Positions 27,213-50,504 of a DNA stretch of 64,000 nucleotides are shown piece after piece. The stretch is taken from positions 1-64,000 of the IMG/VR virus record IMGVR_UViG_3300046834_000025, one strand, 5' to 3'. How positions within the stretch are numbered: the stretch's first letter is position 1; every line of letters starts with the position of its first letter. Made by a program: the position numbers and the translations under genes. Origin of the DNA: a virus. Under the pieces are notes generated by a model. That model saw nothing but the letters and a program-made list of their open reading frames with translations, searched no databases and was not told where the DNA came from.

Positions 27213-27240
27213 ACTGCGCCTGGAAGGAGGTGATGCCACG

Positions 27241-28594
27241 ATGACCTATGATCCCCGCTTGCACGAATATCAGTTGCGAGCGATCGAACATCTGCTTGGA
27301 ACCGGCGAACGCGGTTCAGCGTTGTTACTTGACATGGGCCTCGGTTGAAGGCAAGACCGCTACCGTCTTGCAGGCGATCGACGAGCGCCACCTTCCGATG
27401 CTTGTGTTGGCACCCAAGAGGGTTGCCGAAGAAGTGTGGCTGGAACAGCGTGACCTCTGGCGACCTGGTCTGGACATGGTCGTGGCGACCGGCAGCCCGA
27501 CCACGCGGGCCAACAAGCGTGCCAGAGACGCCGATGTCGTCGTCATGACCCGCGACAACGTGGGTGACTTCGGAGACCGGAAGCACCCGTTCCGCACTGT
27601 CGTCCTGGACGAGTCGTCCGGCTACAAGGACAAAGGTACCGCCCGTTGGAGGGCGACTAACAAGGTAGTCAACAAGAGTCACTTCACTTGGGCATTGACT
27701 GGCACACCTGCGCCGAACAGCTACATGGACCTCTGGGCACAGATGTACCTGCTCGACCACGGCAAGCGACTTGAGACCACGTTGGGGGCGTATAGGAACC
27801 GCTACTTCGACGCTGGACGCCGGACGAAGATCACCAACATCGTCTACGAGTGGTTGCTCAAGCCTGGTGCCAAGGACTCGATCAACAAGAGGCTTGAGGA
27901 CCTTTGCCTCTCAATGAGAGCCGAAGACTACCTGACGCTTCCAGAGCTCACCTTCAACGAGGTACGGGTCAAGATACCGCCCGTGGCGAAGCGAGCTTAT
28001 GAAGACCTGCATAAGGTCTTGGTCGCCGACCTGACGCTCATGGGAGGGTATGTCCACACTGCAGCGAACGCGGCTGTCCTCTCGAACCGTCTGCGTCAGG
28101 TGTGTGCCGGATTCCTCTACGAGGACGGCAACACGGACAACCACACCTGGTTGCACGACGAGAAGATGCGTGCGTTGCAGGAGATCGTCGATGGTACTGG
28201 CTCGCCGGTCCTGGTCTTCTACCAGTTCAAGGAGGAAGAGCGAAAGATCCTCTCTGTCATCGATGGTGCCGTCTCGATCCGCGAGCCAGGCATCATTCCT
28301 GCCTGGAACCGTGGAGAGGTACGAGCCCTGGTCGCACACCCGCAGTCAGCCGGTCACGGTCTCAACCTGCAGCACGGCGGTCACACGATCGTCTACACCA
28401 CCTTGCCGTGGTCTGGTGAGGAGTGGGAGCAGTCCGTTCACCGCCTGCACCGCCAGGGACAGCGCAACGCTGTTGTCGTCCACTGGCTCTGGGCAGGCCC
28501 GATCGACCGTACCGCCTTCAACACGGTGCAAGACAAGAAGTCCGTACAGGACGGGCTCAAGTCGTACCTCCGAGAGACAGACCTGTGGCTATGA
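27241..28594 (+). CDS. SNF2-type DNA helicase with a frame break in Walker A
   Basis: The ATG has a strong AAGGAGGTGAT site and opens a frame ending LLLDMGLG then TGA. The next frame (+1) continues GKTATVLQAIDER and runs 415 codons to the end. Across both, the protein is a phage SNF2/SF2 helicase of about 448 residues: motif I MGLGKT, motif II VLDESS, motif III LTGTPAPNS, and C-terminal motifs V/VI AGHGLNLQ and SVHRLHRQGQ. TGA at 27346-27348 separates GGT from GGC. Removing 7 nt restores MGLGKT exactly. Options: ribosome hop, +1 shift (giving MGLGEGKT), real inactivation, or sequence error. Normally it remodels replication or recombination intermediates. Confidence 0.8.
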
Positions 28595-29130
28595 ACTACG
28601 ATGCAGCACACTATAGTCTTCGCAAGGCGCGAGGACTCGCTTCCGCATACGCGTGCGTGAACTGCGATGCGCAGGCACGCGACTGGTCATACCAGTACAA
28701 CGCAGGGGCAGATGAGCTTACAGAAGGTCGGAGACGATACTCAGCCAACCCGGATCACTACGTGCCGATGTGTCGGCGCTGCCACAAGGCTTTCGATGCA
28801 GAGCATGATCCCTCGATCACAGAAGCTCTAGCAGCCAGTGGGCGGAGAAACATCGTACACTGCCTAGAGGTGAAGGCTGAACGGTTAGCGACTGACCCTG
28901 AATACGCTGCACGAGTTGCCGACCATGCGCGTACCATGTGGACACCAGAAGGCAGCCTGGCAGGTGGGCTGGCCGTCATGGAGAAGATCGGTCCAGAACA
29001 GTGGAGCGAGAACGCAAGTCGAGGAGGTACAACCGTCAGCAAGCAAACACGAGAGTGCGAGTGCGGGTTAATCAGCAACCCCGGAGCAGTTGGAAGACAT
29101 CTGAGTGCAACAGGGCACTCACTGAAGTGA
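28591..29130 (+). CDS. HNH endonuclease at the 3' end of the SNF2 gene
   Basis: 179 residues. Zinc-type HNH core: ACVNCDAQARDWSYQYNAGA, then YVPMCRRCHKAFD. The C-terminal ~30 residues form a second Cys/His motif (CECG...GRHLSATGH) shared with the HNH protein at 45.1 kb. ATG overlaps the helicase stop. Directly after its stop, 29130-29153 encode K-E-T-D-L-W-L-stop, a recoded copy of the helicase C-terminus R-E-T-D-L-W-L-stop. A homing-type cassette. Confidence 0.85.
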   Translation: MNYDAAHYSLRKARGLASAYACVNCDAQARDWSYQYNAGADELTEGRRRYSANPDHYVPMCRRCHKAFDAEHDPSITEALAASGRRNIVHCLEVKAERLATDPEYAARVADHARTMWTPEGSLAGGLAVMEKIGPEQWSENASRGGTTVSKQTRECECGLISNPGAVGRHLSATGHSLK

Positions 29131-30330: not shown

Positions 30331-30457
30331 GACCTGCGCTGAAGAGGCACGCAGGATGGTCGATCACCTGACCACCGAACTCGAGAGGCTGCGAGCGCAA
30401 AACGAGCAGCTACACATCGAGATCCAGAACCCAGAGATGAGGATCGATTGGAACTGA
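30275..30457 (+). CDS. Small protein with CxxC and coiled-coil helix
   Basis: 60 residues: CPVCTAPHGTPHRKTC, then a long helix (ARRMVDHLTTELERLRAQNE). GGAGGAAAGC before the ATG. The last residues MRIDWN-stop recall the RPDW start of the deaminase beyond the HNH gene, so the 3' end may be a remnant created by HNH insertion (weak). Confidence 0.62.
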   Translation: MSRLICPVCTAPHGTPHRKTCAEEARRMVDHLTTELERLRAQNEQLHIEIQNPEMRIDWN

Positions 30458-31005
30458 TCAAGCCGTGTCGTCGAGGTCTCCACGATCTCGCCGATACGGT
30501 CAACGTCTACGTGCAGCCAAGTACCGGCAAGCCGCAATGCAAGCGGTGCATGGCTGACCGGCGCAAGAGGAACAGGCAGCGCAAGGCAGATCAGTATGCA
30601 GCAGTTACCAAAGCCTGGAGAGAACAGAACAAAGAGAGGAATGCTGCAGTACGACGCGCCAACAAGGAGGGTGTAGCTAAGTGGAACAAGACGTATCGCC
30701 AGAACAACCCGGAGAAGTTCCAAGGGTACCAACGAAAGAGACGTGCGCTGAAGGCTAGCCTGCCTTCGGAGCCGTACACCAGGCAGGACATCATCGATCG
30801 TGATGGAACGGACTGTGGTCTCTGTGGAGAGCCTGTCGATCTTGAGCTCAAGTACCCAGATCATCTGTCGCCGTCGATCGACCACGTCATCCCGATCACC
30901 AGGCAAGGACCAGATACCCTTGCGAACGTGCAACTCGCGCACCTGATTTGCAACATACGCAAGCACAACCACCTGGAGGAGAAGGACCTTGAACGAGCGT
31001 CCTGA
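30448..31005 (+). CDS. HNH endonuclease (paralogue of the terminase-adjacent one)
   Basis: 185 residues. Basic helical N-terminus with one zinc knuckle (CRRG...CKRC), then EPYTRQDIIDRDGTDCGLCG, SIDHVIPIT and ANVQLAHLICNIRKHN. The HNH half is closely similar to the protein at 4.66-5.41 kb; the N-terminal halves differ. TTG start overlapping the previous gene by 10 bp; the 3' end overlaps the deaminase by 17 bp. Confidence 0.82.
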   Translation: MELIKPCRRGLHDLADTVNVYVQPSTGKPQCKRCMADRRKRNRQRKADQYAAVTKAWREQNKERNAAVRRANKEGVAKWNKTYRQNNPEKFQGYQRKRRALKASLPSEPYTRQDIIDRDGTDCGLCGEPVDLELKYPDHLSPSIDHVIPITRQGPDTLANVQLAHLICNIRKHNHLEEKDLERAS

Positions 31006-31756: not shown

Positions 31757-32797
31757 GTGGCCCACGAAATCACCGACACCGACACCGTCATCTCCGTCCG
31801 TGACGCAGGCTGGCACGGCCTGGCCAAGGTGCTCGACGACTACGTCACGCCGGAAGAGGCTCGCAAGGCTGCCTTCGACTGGGAGCCGATCACCACGCCT
31901 CTCTACCGTGGCGTTCCGGTCATTGGTGACGACGGCTATGTCAGCCGGGGATACGAGCTCATCGAGGGCACTGTCGGCGTGGAGCGCAGCGACAACGGCG
32001 TCTTCTTCGGCGCTGTCAGCAAGGAACTCGGCGAGACGCTGGAGCACACCAACAACAAGACCCTGACCGAGGTGGCCGAAGCCGTCGAGGGCATCGCCGC
32101 TGGTGATGTCCGGGTCGAGACCGCTGGCAGCCTCAAGGGTGGCCGGAAGGTCTGGATGCTCCTCCGCCTCAACGAGCCGATTGCCATCAAGGGTGACCCG
32201 CACGGCGACACGATCCCCTACTTCGCGCTCCAGACCTCCCACGACGGCACCGGCTCGTTCCGTGGGCAGGCTCTGTTCACCCGCGTGATCTGCGACAACA
32301 CCGCTCAGATGGCCGACCTCGAGGCCGCGAAGCGCGGCACGGAGTTCACCTTCCGCCACACCTCCGGCATCAAGGACCGAATCGAAGAGGCGAAGGCTGC
32401 CGTCGCCATGTGGCGCAAGAGCGTGGAGGACTGGAACACGCTCATGGGCAACCTGATGGATCTCAAGATCACCGTGAAGCAGCAGGAACTCTTCGTCGAC
32501 CAGTGGCAGCCGCTGATGCTGCCGGAGGGTCTGGCCGTCAGCCAGCGCGTGCAGAACAACATCGAGACTGCTCGCGGTGAGTTCTGGGGCATCATGAACG
32601 GCGTCACCACGGAGGGCATCGACCTCACGGCCTACGGACTGGTGCAGGCCGCGATTGAACACCAGCAACATGTTCGGAGCGTCCGCGCTGACTCGGATCT
32701 CGCTCGTGCTGAAAGCCGCTTCAACCGTGCCTACCTGCAGCGCGATAGCCTGACCACCCTCGCCGTGAAGCTCGCTCGTGAGGTTGCGGCAGCCTGA
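31757..32797 (+). CDS. DUF932 protein (phage/plasmid-like)
   Basis: 346 residues matching the DUF932 / TIGR03299 pattern throughout: AGWHGLAKVLDD, YELIEGTVGVERSDNGVFFG, GGRKVWMLLRLNEP, ALFTRVICDNTAQMA. GTG start with AGGAAGGGAAG upstream, just after a strong promoter. Highly expressed early proteins in many actinophages; biochemical role unknown. The last four codons read AREVAAA and its stop overlaps the HNH ATG. Confidence 0.88.
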   Translation: MAHEITDTDTVISVRDAGWHGLAKVLDDYVTPEEARKAAFDWEPITTPLYRGVPVIGDDGYVSRGYELIEGTVGVERSDNGVFFGAVSKELGETLEHTNNKTLTEVAEAVEGIAAGDVRVETAGSLKGGRKVWMLLRLNEPIAIKGDPHGDTIPYFALQTSHDGTGSFRGQALFTRVICDNTAQMADLEAAKRGTEFTFRHTSGIKDRIEEAKAAVAMWRKSVEDWNTLMGNLMDLKITVKQQELFVDQWQPLMLPEGLAVSQRVQNNIETARGEFWGIMNGVTTEGIDLTAYGLVQAAIEHQQHVRSVRADSDLARAESRFNRAYLQRDSLTTLAVKLAREVAAA

Positions 32798-33306
32798 TGA
32801 ACTCCGGCGTGCCGACCCTGGCCAACCTGCTCAGCAAGTTCGAGCAGGTCGGCTCGGGGTGCTGGGAGTGGGTCAACCCGACTCACAAGCAGGGCTACGG
32901 TACGATCAGGTGGGACGGGCGAACGGTCTTCGCTCACCGGCTGATGGTGGCTGCAGTCTACGGCGTAACGCTCGAACAGATCCGAGAAGATGTAGTCCGG
33001 CACTCATGTGACAACACGTCGTGTGTCAACCCGCTTCATCTGCTCGTAGGAACACAACAGCAGAACTGTTTCGATCGGCTAATCCGTGGCCGACGCGTCG
33101 AACGACTAAACAACACAAGGCGTCTCTCCGTCGACATCGTTACGGAGATGCGACGTCGAGCACGGCAAGGCGAACGAGGTGTTGCTTTGGCACACGAGTT
33201 CGGAATTTCGAAGAGCAGCACCTATCAAGCAATCCGAGGCTACACATGGTCATGGATTGAAGAACCACCCGTCACAACACTGAGAGGAAACCGACATGAA
33301 CAGTAA
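32797..33306 (+). CDS. HNH endonuclease with C-terminal HTH
   Basis: 169 residues. HNH_3-type His-Me finger: GCWEWVNPTHKQGYGTIRWD, AHRLMVAAVYG, VRHSCDNTS-CVNPLHLLVGT. C-terminal HTH: RRARQGERGVALAHEFGISK followed by SSTYQAIRGYTW. TGATG overlap with DUF932. It opens M-N-S (ATG AAC TCC) and the gene it overlaps downstream also opens M-N-S (ATG AAC AGT), a possible recoded-end insertion. Confidence 0.83.
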   Translation: MNSGVPTLANLLSKFEQVGSGCWEWVNPTHKQGYGTIRWDGRTVFAHRLMVAAVYGVTLEQIREDVVRHSCDNTSCVNPLHLLVGTQQQNCFDRLIRGRRVERLNNTRRLSVDIVTEMRRRARQGERGVALAHEFGISKSSTYQAIRGYTWSWIEEPPVTTLRGNRHEQ

Positions 33307-48897: not shown

Positions 48898-49988
48898 CCA
48901 AGCGCGTACTCCTCAGCGGAGCGGGTGGCTTCGCTGGCTCGCACGCTCTGCGGCACATCCTGGCGACGACAGACTGGGATGTCGTTGCGCCGGTCACGTT
49001 CTCTCACAAGGGTCTCAGCGACCGTATCCGACTTGCGATGGACGACATGCCGGAAGCCGCCACACGAGTCAAGGTCCTACGCTGCGACCTGGCCGCGTCG
49101 ATCAGTCCCGTGACGGACGACGCCTTCGGCCACATCGACTACGTGCTGAACTTCGCCTCTGAGTCGCACGTCGATCGCTCCATCCGGCAGCCTGGTCCGT
49201 TCATCCGCAACAACGTTGCACTCATGACGCACCTGCTCGACTGGGCGGCCAGCCGTTCAGAGCTCCAGGCTTTCATCCAGATCTCGACGGACGAGGTGTA
49301 CGGTCCCGCGCCAGTCGGCTACAACCACCACGAGTGGCACGACCAGCACTTGCCGTCGAACCCGTACAGTGCGAGCAAGGCTGCGATGGAGGACATCGCC
49401 TTCGCGTACTGGCGCACCTACGATCTGCCGATCGTGATCACGAACACGATGAACCTCGTCGGCGAGACGCAGGATGCCGAGAAGTTCGTGCCGATGACGA
49501 TCAGCAAGGTTCTCAACGGCAAGCCGATGACCATCCACGCCAGCAGGTCCGGCAAGCCTGGCAGTAGGTTCTACCTCCACGCTCGCAACCAGGCTGACGG
49601 CGTGCTGCACGTCCTAAAGTACCTCACGCAGGCAAGGACGGTCGAGTTCCAGGGCAGCACCCGCCTCTCGTGGGATCACGTCACCGACCAGGAGACCGGC
49701 GAAAGCCTGCTCCATAGCGAGGGTGGCACCAAGCCGTTCCGCTACCACATCGTTGGTGAGCGCGAGGTTGACAACCTCGAGATGGCACAGATGATCGCTC
49801 AGGCAGTTGGAAAGCCGCTGCAGTATGACCTCGTGGACTTCCATTCGAGTCGTCCTGGACACGATCTTCGCTACGGGTTGGACGGCGAGAAACTGGCAGG
49901 CATCGACTGGGCACCTCCGGTGCCGCTGGACGAGAGCCTGCAGCGCATGGTGAAGTGGACCCTCGATCACCCGGAATGGCTGCTATGA
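48894..49988 (+). CDS. NAD-dependent epimerase/dehydratase, dTDP-glucose 4,6-dehydratase-like
   Basis: 364 residues, extended SDR. Rossmann motif GAGGFAGSH at 9-17, ASESHVDRSI, catalytic STDEVYG around 130 and NPYSASKAAME (Tyr/Lys) around 155-162. The T-D-E-V-Y-G form points to RmlB-type dehydratases that make keto-deoxy sugars. Followed by three glycosyltransferases, so it likely supplies or edits a sugar for virion, DNA or host-surface glycosylation (inference). Flanked on both ends by HNH cassettes. Confidence 0.87.
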   Translation: MTKRVLLSGAGGFAGSHALRHILATTDWDVVAPVTFSHKGLSDRIRLAMDDMPEAATRVKVLRCDLAASISPVTDDAFGHIDYVLNFASESHVDRSIRQPGPFIRNNVALMTHLLDWAASRSELQAFIQISTDEVYGPAPVGYNHHEWHDQHLPSNPYSASKAAMEDIAFAYWRTYDLPIVITNTMNLVGETQDAEKFVPMTISKVLNGKPMTIHASRSGKPGSRFYLHARNQADGVLHVLKYLTQARTVEFQGSTRLSWDHVTDQETGESLLHSEGGTKPFRYHIVGEREVDNLEMAQMIAQAVGKPLQYDLVDFHSSRPGHDLRYGLDGEKLAGIDWAPPVPLDESLQRMVKWTLDHPEWLL

Positions 49989-50504
49989 CCAAACGGTGTC
50001 CCCGGTGTACGCGAGATCTTCCACACTCTGAGTTCGGAAGGGATAGCTGGAAACGAGACGGCCTTCAAACCTACTGCCGGACATGTTGTTCAGCGAGAAT
50101 GCAAGAGCACAAGATTCGGACAAACAAGCGTTGTCCAGACTGTGAGGCTCTCATCAGCCCCTATCGAGATCGTTGCCGCAAATGTTCTACTCTGGGTGAG
50201 AGAAGTGCTCGTTGGATCAGTGGACGGCAGAGGGATCGGAAGGGCTACGTTATCCTCAGCATAGCACAAGCACCGGGTGCTCTCAAGACACGACAGGGGG
50301 GGACAGATAGCTGAGCACCGATACGTCATGGAGCAGATCCTTGGTCGCGCTCTCCTCCCAACAGAAACCGTCCACCACAAGAACGGGGTCCGGGATGACA
50401 ACCGACCTGAGAACCTCGAGCTCTGGTCTACCAGTCAGCCACCAGGCCAGCGAATCGAGGACAAGCTCCAATGGGCTCGTGAGTTCATCCGGCTGTACGG
50501 TTGA
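49985..50504 (+). pseudogene. HNH endonuclease with a G-run frameshift, at the 3' end of the epimerase gene
   Basis: First frame: zinc-rich N-terminus (CPRCTRDLPHSEFGRDSW, CRTCC, CPDC, CRKC) to ...RQGGTDS-stop. Second frame (+1), after a run of seven G at 50296-50302: QIAEHRYVMEQILGRALLPT, HHKNGVRDDNRPENLELW, an intact HNH_3 core. Six G would join the two. ATG overlaps the epimerase stop. Its own stop lies in a second copy of the epimerase 3' end (D-H-P-E-W-L). Decay, recoding or a homopolymer sequencing error are all possible. Confidence 0.8.

Follow-up and report, generated by a model that had tools for sequence, protein, structure and literature searches.

An SNF2 helicase gene carried by an uncultivated virus is interrupted within the codons of its ATP-binding motif I, and the interruption appears to belong to a family-wide, horizontally moving cassette rather than being a single oddity, a point absent from the earlier note on this DNA. 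Considering the sequence comparisons as a whole, we think it probable that the cassette is a mobile homing element, that its insert marks an immune allele, and that ribosome bypassing restores the motif DMGLGKT.

The stretch of DNA analyzed here, hereafter the window, comprises bases 1–64000 of the 77.8-kb virus record IMGVR_UViG_3300046834_000025. On its plus strand, the helicase locus opens with a very strong Shine–Dalgarno leader, GGAAGGAGGTGATG (27223–27236), a signature of broken alleles. Within this leader, GGAGGTGA is located at 27226, ahead of the helicase start, and ribosome site and start together read GGAAGGAGGTGATGCCACG ATG, with the ATG at 27241. The first open reading frame (27241–27348, plus strand) encodes the helicase N-terminus up to DMGLG in 35 codons, the last of which are CTT GAC ATG GGC CTC GGT, and ends with TGA at 27346–27348. 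The order at the break is GGT (27343–27345), TGA (27346–27348), a single A, GGC (27350–27352), and then AAG ACC. GGT is the presumed take-off codon, as judged by its position and by comparison with broken alleles, and GGC is the presumed landing codon, as judged by the sequence and by the landing-codon table of the whole family. The two are spaced by the four bases TGAA, and the ribosome would be required to move 7 nt. Alignment to intact relatives gives the skipped 7 nt as TGAA plus the landing codon (27346–27352), and the same gap can equally be drawn as an insert GGTTGAA at 27343–27349.

The remainder of the SNF2/HepA-like helicase (27353–28594, plus strand; PF00176; PHROG 62 DNA helicase, 3.5e-108) is intact in the +1 frame, a register (the 27248 frame) that contains no stop until 28592–28594. 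The joined protein aligns to relatives continuously across motif I and scores 4e-14 against SNF2-rel_dom (residues 10–256), as compared with 4e-10 for the downstream part alone. The earlier note had described a frame break in the Walker A motif of an SNF2 helicase, from which a +1 slip would give MGLGEGKT and a GGT-to-GGC hop would give MGLGKT; the sequence is as described, and both products follow from it. In relatives, the helicase neighbors VRR-NUC and primase genes. The exact broken sequence of the window has no other instance in IMG/VR, and a single-protein search returned no close relative of its helicase. A scan of the window clade found nearest relatives that are 55–56% identical at best, intact, and without the strong leader.

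Breaks of the same kind recur across the helicase family. We assembled a motif-blind sample of 330 distinct genes from scans of IMG/VR and GTDB genomes, in which one query began after motif I to avoid favoring intact genes. Forty-five of these genes carry an insert of 1–10 nt, in every case within the DMGLGKT codons (L052 is scored as broken in this count, and L584, a substitution, is not). A pattern search brought the broken set to about 117 genes (over 110; 118 in one tally), and every break is located in the codons for M-G-L-G. For instance, in Paenibacillaceae the pattern matched in 10 of 300 genomes, and all 10 matches are this helicase. Among named phages, the closest relative is Glutamicibacter phage Montesquieu, in which the break falls four codons earlier (ATG TAG CTA ATC GGA CTT GGA AAG); Paenibacillus phage Pd_22F reads GGT TA GGT AAA, and two Ruminococcus phages NatCom (L519, L520) read GGT TGAC AAA. 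The genome of Clostridium guangxiense (G003) carries two copies of the helicase (L607, L608), and in one copy motif I is interrupted. Database annotation of L002 and L518–L520 either places the start downstream of motif I or gives two hypothetical proteins.

An artefact of sequencing or assembly might be suspected in a metagenomic contig known from a single uncultivated record, the more so as the same contig has a frame break beside a run of seven G at about 50.3 kb. The helicase insert, however, is 7 nt long and lies in a non-homopolymer context, and equivalent breaks occur in isolate phages and in bacterial genomes from separate projects; we therefore give this explanation almost no credence. 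Simple mutation or sequence error, which the earlier note had held out as the sober alternative, is disfavored by same-codon breaks in over 100 other phage and prophage genes.

The inserts are 1, 2, 4, 5, 6, 7, 8, 9, or 10 nt long and span all three frames, and the motif is restored by skipping any one of them. In 40 of the 45 motif-blind cases, the first codon of the insert is TAG, TGA, or TAA (TGA in the window), so that after take-off the A site would be occupied by a stop codon, such as programmed bypassing characteristically has there, if not a slow codon; the other 5 of 45 have no immediate stop. TGG, permitted by the search pattern TRR, occurs 0 times among the pattern matches in this helicase family. 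The inserts are mostly positioned after the second Gly codon (GGT/GGC), and a few after the Leu or Met codon. A one-base insert is seen in L296 and L297, which read CTT CGG C without a stop; CGG may be slow in these hosts, and the +1 shift site of Ty1, CTT AGG C, is similar. We rejected an intein or intron at motif I, present at none of the loci, and an alternative genetic code, given that TAA, TAG, and TGA are all used and the frame changes.

The codons on either side of the insert are constrained. Of the landing codons (those just before AAR) in 106 Gly-class genes, 58 are GGN, 36 are AGC or AGT, and 9 are GAC; in 103 of the 106 the codon is GGN or one transition off, and a perfect Gly match is missing in about half. 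A landing codon that can pair with the take-off tRNA is a further characteristic of programmed bypassing, and the window has GGT and GGC. The +4 class has landing codons that are non-Gly at the first or second base, and 32 of its 33 genes have C at the third, a bias that would fit re-pairing by tRNA-Gly with the anticodon GCC. On the upstream side, synonymous constraint is limited to the three pre-stop codons, GGC, TTG/TTA/CTC, and GGY, with none further upstream. GGC is fixed by the search pattern in part of the set, and the motif-blind set independently has GGC in 31 of 40. The Leu codon is TTG, TTA, or CTC in 99 of 104 broken genes, as compared with CTT, CTG, CTC, or ATG in intact genes, and this bias is not caused by the search pattern. 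The window codons ATG GGC CTC GGT (27334–27345, plus strand) have the constrained form GGC-(TTR/CTC)-GGY. Besides these codons, the window allele shows the leader, an insert that opens with a stop, and take-off and landing codons that match perfectly as Gly/Gly. No stem-loop was found in the RNA around the break, and folding z-scores differ weakly and inconsistently from those of intact genes.

These features bear on whether stop readthrough or an ordinary frameshift (+1 or −1), with a gain of one to three residues in the P-loop, might suffice. A stop in the A site does promote slippage, and L296/L297 (CTT CGG C) and L288 (GGG TAA G) require merely a +1 shift. Nevertheless, frames 0, +1, and +2 are all needed within one family, so no single shift suffices, and, unlike a prfB-type +1 frameshift with its one fixed direction, the inserts fall in all three frames. 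Moreover, for most classes the extra residues would fall inside motif I, as with MGLGEGKT in the window, and the landing codons are Gly-like. We consider frameshifting or readthrough quite improbable, and favor a hop of variable length, since it is the sole translation mechanism that would yield exact DMGLGKT from every insert.

Selection on the broken genes provides a further line of evidence. Downstream of the stop, Ka/Ks is about 0.03–0.09 in several groups that share an insert (L403/L420/L422; L318/L352/L371/L395; L364/L389; L339/L340/L385; Ks 0.1 to over 1), indicating strong purifying selection, and it is higher for L101/L106 (0.32) and L089/L268 (0.27). One cassette could be acquired repeatedly by a same-insert group, which would weaken its Ka/Ks argument, and no single group is taken as proof since shared cassettes may be acquired more than once. 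A test of N/S on branches, which is independent of shared inserts and would be diluted where the break is younger than the branch, gave a ratio of 0.219 for broken branches and 0.193 for intact ones (35 broken/intact/outgroup triplets; Fisher P 0.17). In the first ten post-break codons, pN/pS is 0.106 (11 pairs pooled). The post-motif frame is shortened in 0 of the first 250 distinct genes, and further truncation is found in 2 of 117 broken genes (L324 and L325, both found by the pattern search). As a set, the broken genes do not show the relaxed selection and further damage of pseudogenes and, judged by selection, appear to be functional.

It might be argued instead that the insert kills the helicase, and that broken copies are recent, dead, and carried by a selfish endonuclease. 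On paper the insert does destroy motif I, some junctions are very young (L101/L099), and L324 and L325 bear additional damage. Such recurrent inactivation is nonetheless unlikely, because post-stop Ka/Ks stays at 0.03–0.09 in same-insert groups at Ks of 0.3 to over 1, N/S is not elevated on broken branches, the stop-first rule and the three-codon synonymous constraint would be pointless in dead genes, and the landing codons are biased. The absence of relaxed selection on broken branches also speaks against the suggestion, made when the break was first noticed, that it could act as an off switch. Alternatively, the gene could make two proteins, a 35-residue peptide and an internally started C-terminal fragment, and the annotated helicase start is indeed downstream in Montesquieu and Pd_22F. 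The fragment would be without a P-loop, however, the K-T codons and those that follow are under selection (the pN/pS of 0.106 noted above), and in 47 of 118 broken genes the 12 codons that follow the break contain no in-frame start, all of which makes two proteins very unlikely. A universal internal start was rejected, as no conserved start was found after the break.

The broken alleles differ from intact ones upstream of the insert as well. Among loci with enough flank, 29 of 108 broken ones have an HNH_3 gene (PF13392, 1e-12) inserted between VRR-NUC and helicase, as against 3 of 248 intact ones (P 1e-13). The endonuclease is therefore found next to its presumed target, as in intronless homing, for the family and not for the window; most broken loci, the window among them, have no HNH_3 gene adjoining the helicase, as expected if the endonuclease is often lost after fixation. 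In L519 and L520, the HNH gene upstream has a frame break of its own close to a run of A, and the helicase break persists. The match to the anti-Shine–Dalgarno complement has a mean length of 9.0 nt in broken and 5.9 nt in intact alleles (P 1e-15), and in the Clostridia clade compared, broken alleles have a different N-terminus, MKFIPH; these alike N-termini might reflect a nascent-peptide signal as in T4 gene 60, but descent of the cassette would explain them too.

Several pairs of alleles have a recombination junction at the insert, consistent with the co-conversion tracts of intronless homing. L101 (broken) and L099 (intact) share about 35–65% identity before the break and 97–100% from the Lys-Thr codons on, and L258 differs from L172 by an endonuclease-gene insertion of ~450 bp, with 96–100% identity after the break. 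L101 and L106 share 97–100% identity in the 500 nt that precede the break and 76% immediately beyond it. For L055 and L017, identity is 92–100% to either side, and most of the difference resides in the leader, N-terminus, and insert.

When the endonuclease was used as a probe against the phage collection, copies beside this helicase were found in Pd_22F and the two Ruminococcus phages, all of them broken. In Corynebacterium phage StAB, the endonuclease lies beside an unbroken helicase whose motif is altered to GLGMGKT. Altered forms of motif I (ECG/DCG or GLGMG) occur in 5 of 7 endonuclease-positive unbroken genes, as predicted if an allele that bears the endonuclease is immune, and alteration is perhaps a second route to immunity. 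In L180, L632, L638, L648, and L517, which are endonuclease-positive and have no insert, ECGLGKT/DCGLGKT or GLGMGKT replaces DMGLGKT. In all but two of the genes examined, the endonuclease-bearing allele lacks the presumed target, either broken or altered.

Of the cassette, the window helicase has the leader and the insert, and no HNH_3 gene adjoins it. A frame-broken HNH_3 gene related to the cassette endonucleases is located at 49955–50501 (plus strand) and is a possible source or relic. Its two frames split near the GGGGGGG run, and it may be a decayed gene, a homopolymer error, or another recoding site; epimerase-like and glycosyltransferase-like genes flank it. The open reading frame that overlaps the helicase stop (ATGA; 28591–29130, plus strand) has a weak match to phrog_1271 HNH (7e-4), no Pfam match, and better PHROG matches to function-unknown families. 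With its CxxC motifs and zinc-finger-like C-terminal end, it is possibly a homing endonuclease. Two further HNH endonuclease genes, at 30448–31005 (PF01844) and 32797–33306 (PF13392/PHROG endonuclease), indicate that the phage has several homing-type nucleases. With no adjacent HNH_3 gene, and with closest relatives that are intact and lack a strong leader, it is by resemblance that we infer a cassette origin for the window allele.

We propose that a free-standing, homing-type HNH_3 endonuclease, whose gene in relatives usually lies directly ahead of the helicase, targets the DNA of the constrained motif I in uninvaded alleles, and that repair would copy in the endonuclease gene together with the helicase N-terminus, its strong ribosome site, and the insert. 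The insert would destroy the target and thereby confer immunity, and the 7-nt insert of the window would be the mark of an immune allele. During translation, the ribosome would stall at the stop, peptidyl-tRNA-Gly would leave GGT at 27343, pass over the insert, and pair again at the following Gly or near-Gly codon (GGC at 27350) to give exact DMGLGKT. Inefficient hopping is probably compensated by the strong ribosome site. The Gly-to-Gly hop that the earlier note had put forward on the logic of T4 gene 60 thus appears to be the best fit to the comparative evidence, given about 115 further breaks, the stop-first rule, the use of three frames, the landing codons, selection, and the linked endonuclease.

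Somewhat less firmly, we lean toward the broader view that short natural stop-hops keep the immune allele of a widespread mobile element viable, and that the capacity to bypass is general to bacterial ribosomes and not peculiar to T4. Lineages would then be free to vary in hop length, frame, and stop codon, with constraint limited to the E-, P-, and A-site codons (GGC, TTR or CTC, GGY, stop) and the very strong ribosome site. This would explain how a homing endonuclease can target an invariant ATP-binding motif and yet leave a working allele. The variants occur in isolate phages and type strains, which makes ribosome departure at a stop codon, the landing pairing required, and how common bypassing is open to experiment. 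In practice, annotation pipelines split or shorten such helicases.

To our knowledge, T4 gene 60 is the one well-studied bacterial bypass, and bypass-dependent homing cassettes were, as far as could be found, previously known from T4 alone. We found no prior account of such a cassette in SNF2 helicases in the literature searched, in which subscription journals were thinly covered. The T4 gene 60/mobA pair resembles the present case in its Gly take-off codon with an immediate stop, its Gly landing codon, and a nearby HNH homing endonuclease (PMC5009743, PMC3014915), and the 50-nt insert of gene 60 is thought to protect against the nuclease that spread the neighboring mobA (PMC5009743). It differs in its 50-nt gap, as compared with 1–10 nt here, and in its stem-loop. 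The present breaks, in which the hop is a predicted one, lie in motif I of an SNF2 helicase, take many forms, and occur in many phages and prophages whose hosts are Firmicutes or Actinobacteria. Since a stem-loop was sought and not found, with 4 nt between the codons and weak folding differences, we do not class the break as of the gene 60 type but regard it as one that may work like it.

Intronless homing, in which the target gene is cut and co-conversion proceeds from the cut, is established for the T4 Seg and Mob enzymes (PMC2988022). As with Seg and MobE, the HNH gene here adjoins its presumed target, and the co-conversion tract extends toward the presumed cut site (PMC2988022); here, however, the immune allele interrupts the frame and so needs recoding, and cleavage is presumed. 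The byp elements of Magnusiomyces capitatus mitochondria are similar in their many short skipped inserts, imperfect landing, and lack of need for an mRNA context (PMC5009743), whereas the present inserts are in bacterial viruses, at one site of one gene family, with a stop in the A site and a linked HNH endonuclease. The Streptomyces phage Hau3 terminase, a probable bypass, is likewise a phage gene whose coding sequence has a short gap (PMC5009743), but it is UUA-related, has no known homing link, and is another gene. Closest in form are the synthetic stop-hops of Weiss et al. (1987), which, in the account given in PMC5009743, were short forward hops in E. coli over a stop between matched codons, e.g., GGT TGA GGC; a natural in-frame stop-hop was not known to that 2016 review (PMC5009743). 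The genes described here are natural, and offer over a hundred variants of a putative short hop at a single homologous motif, for which intact sister genes can serve as controls.
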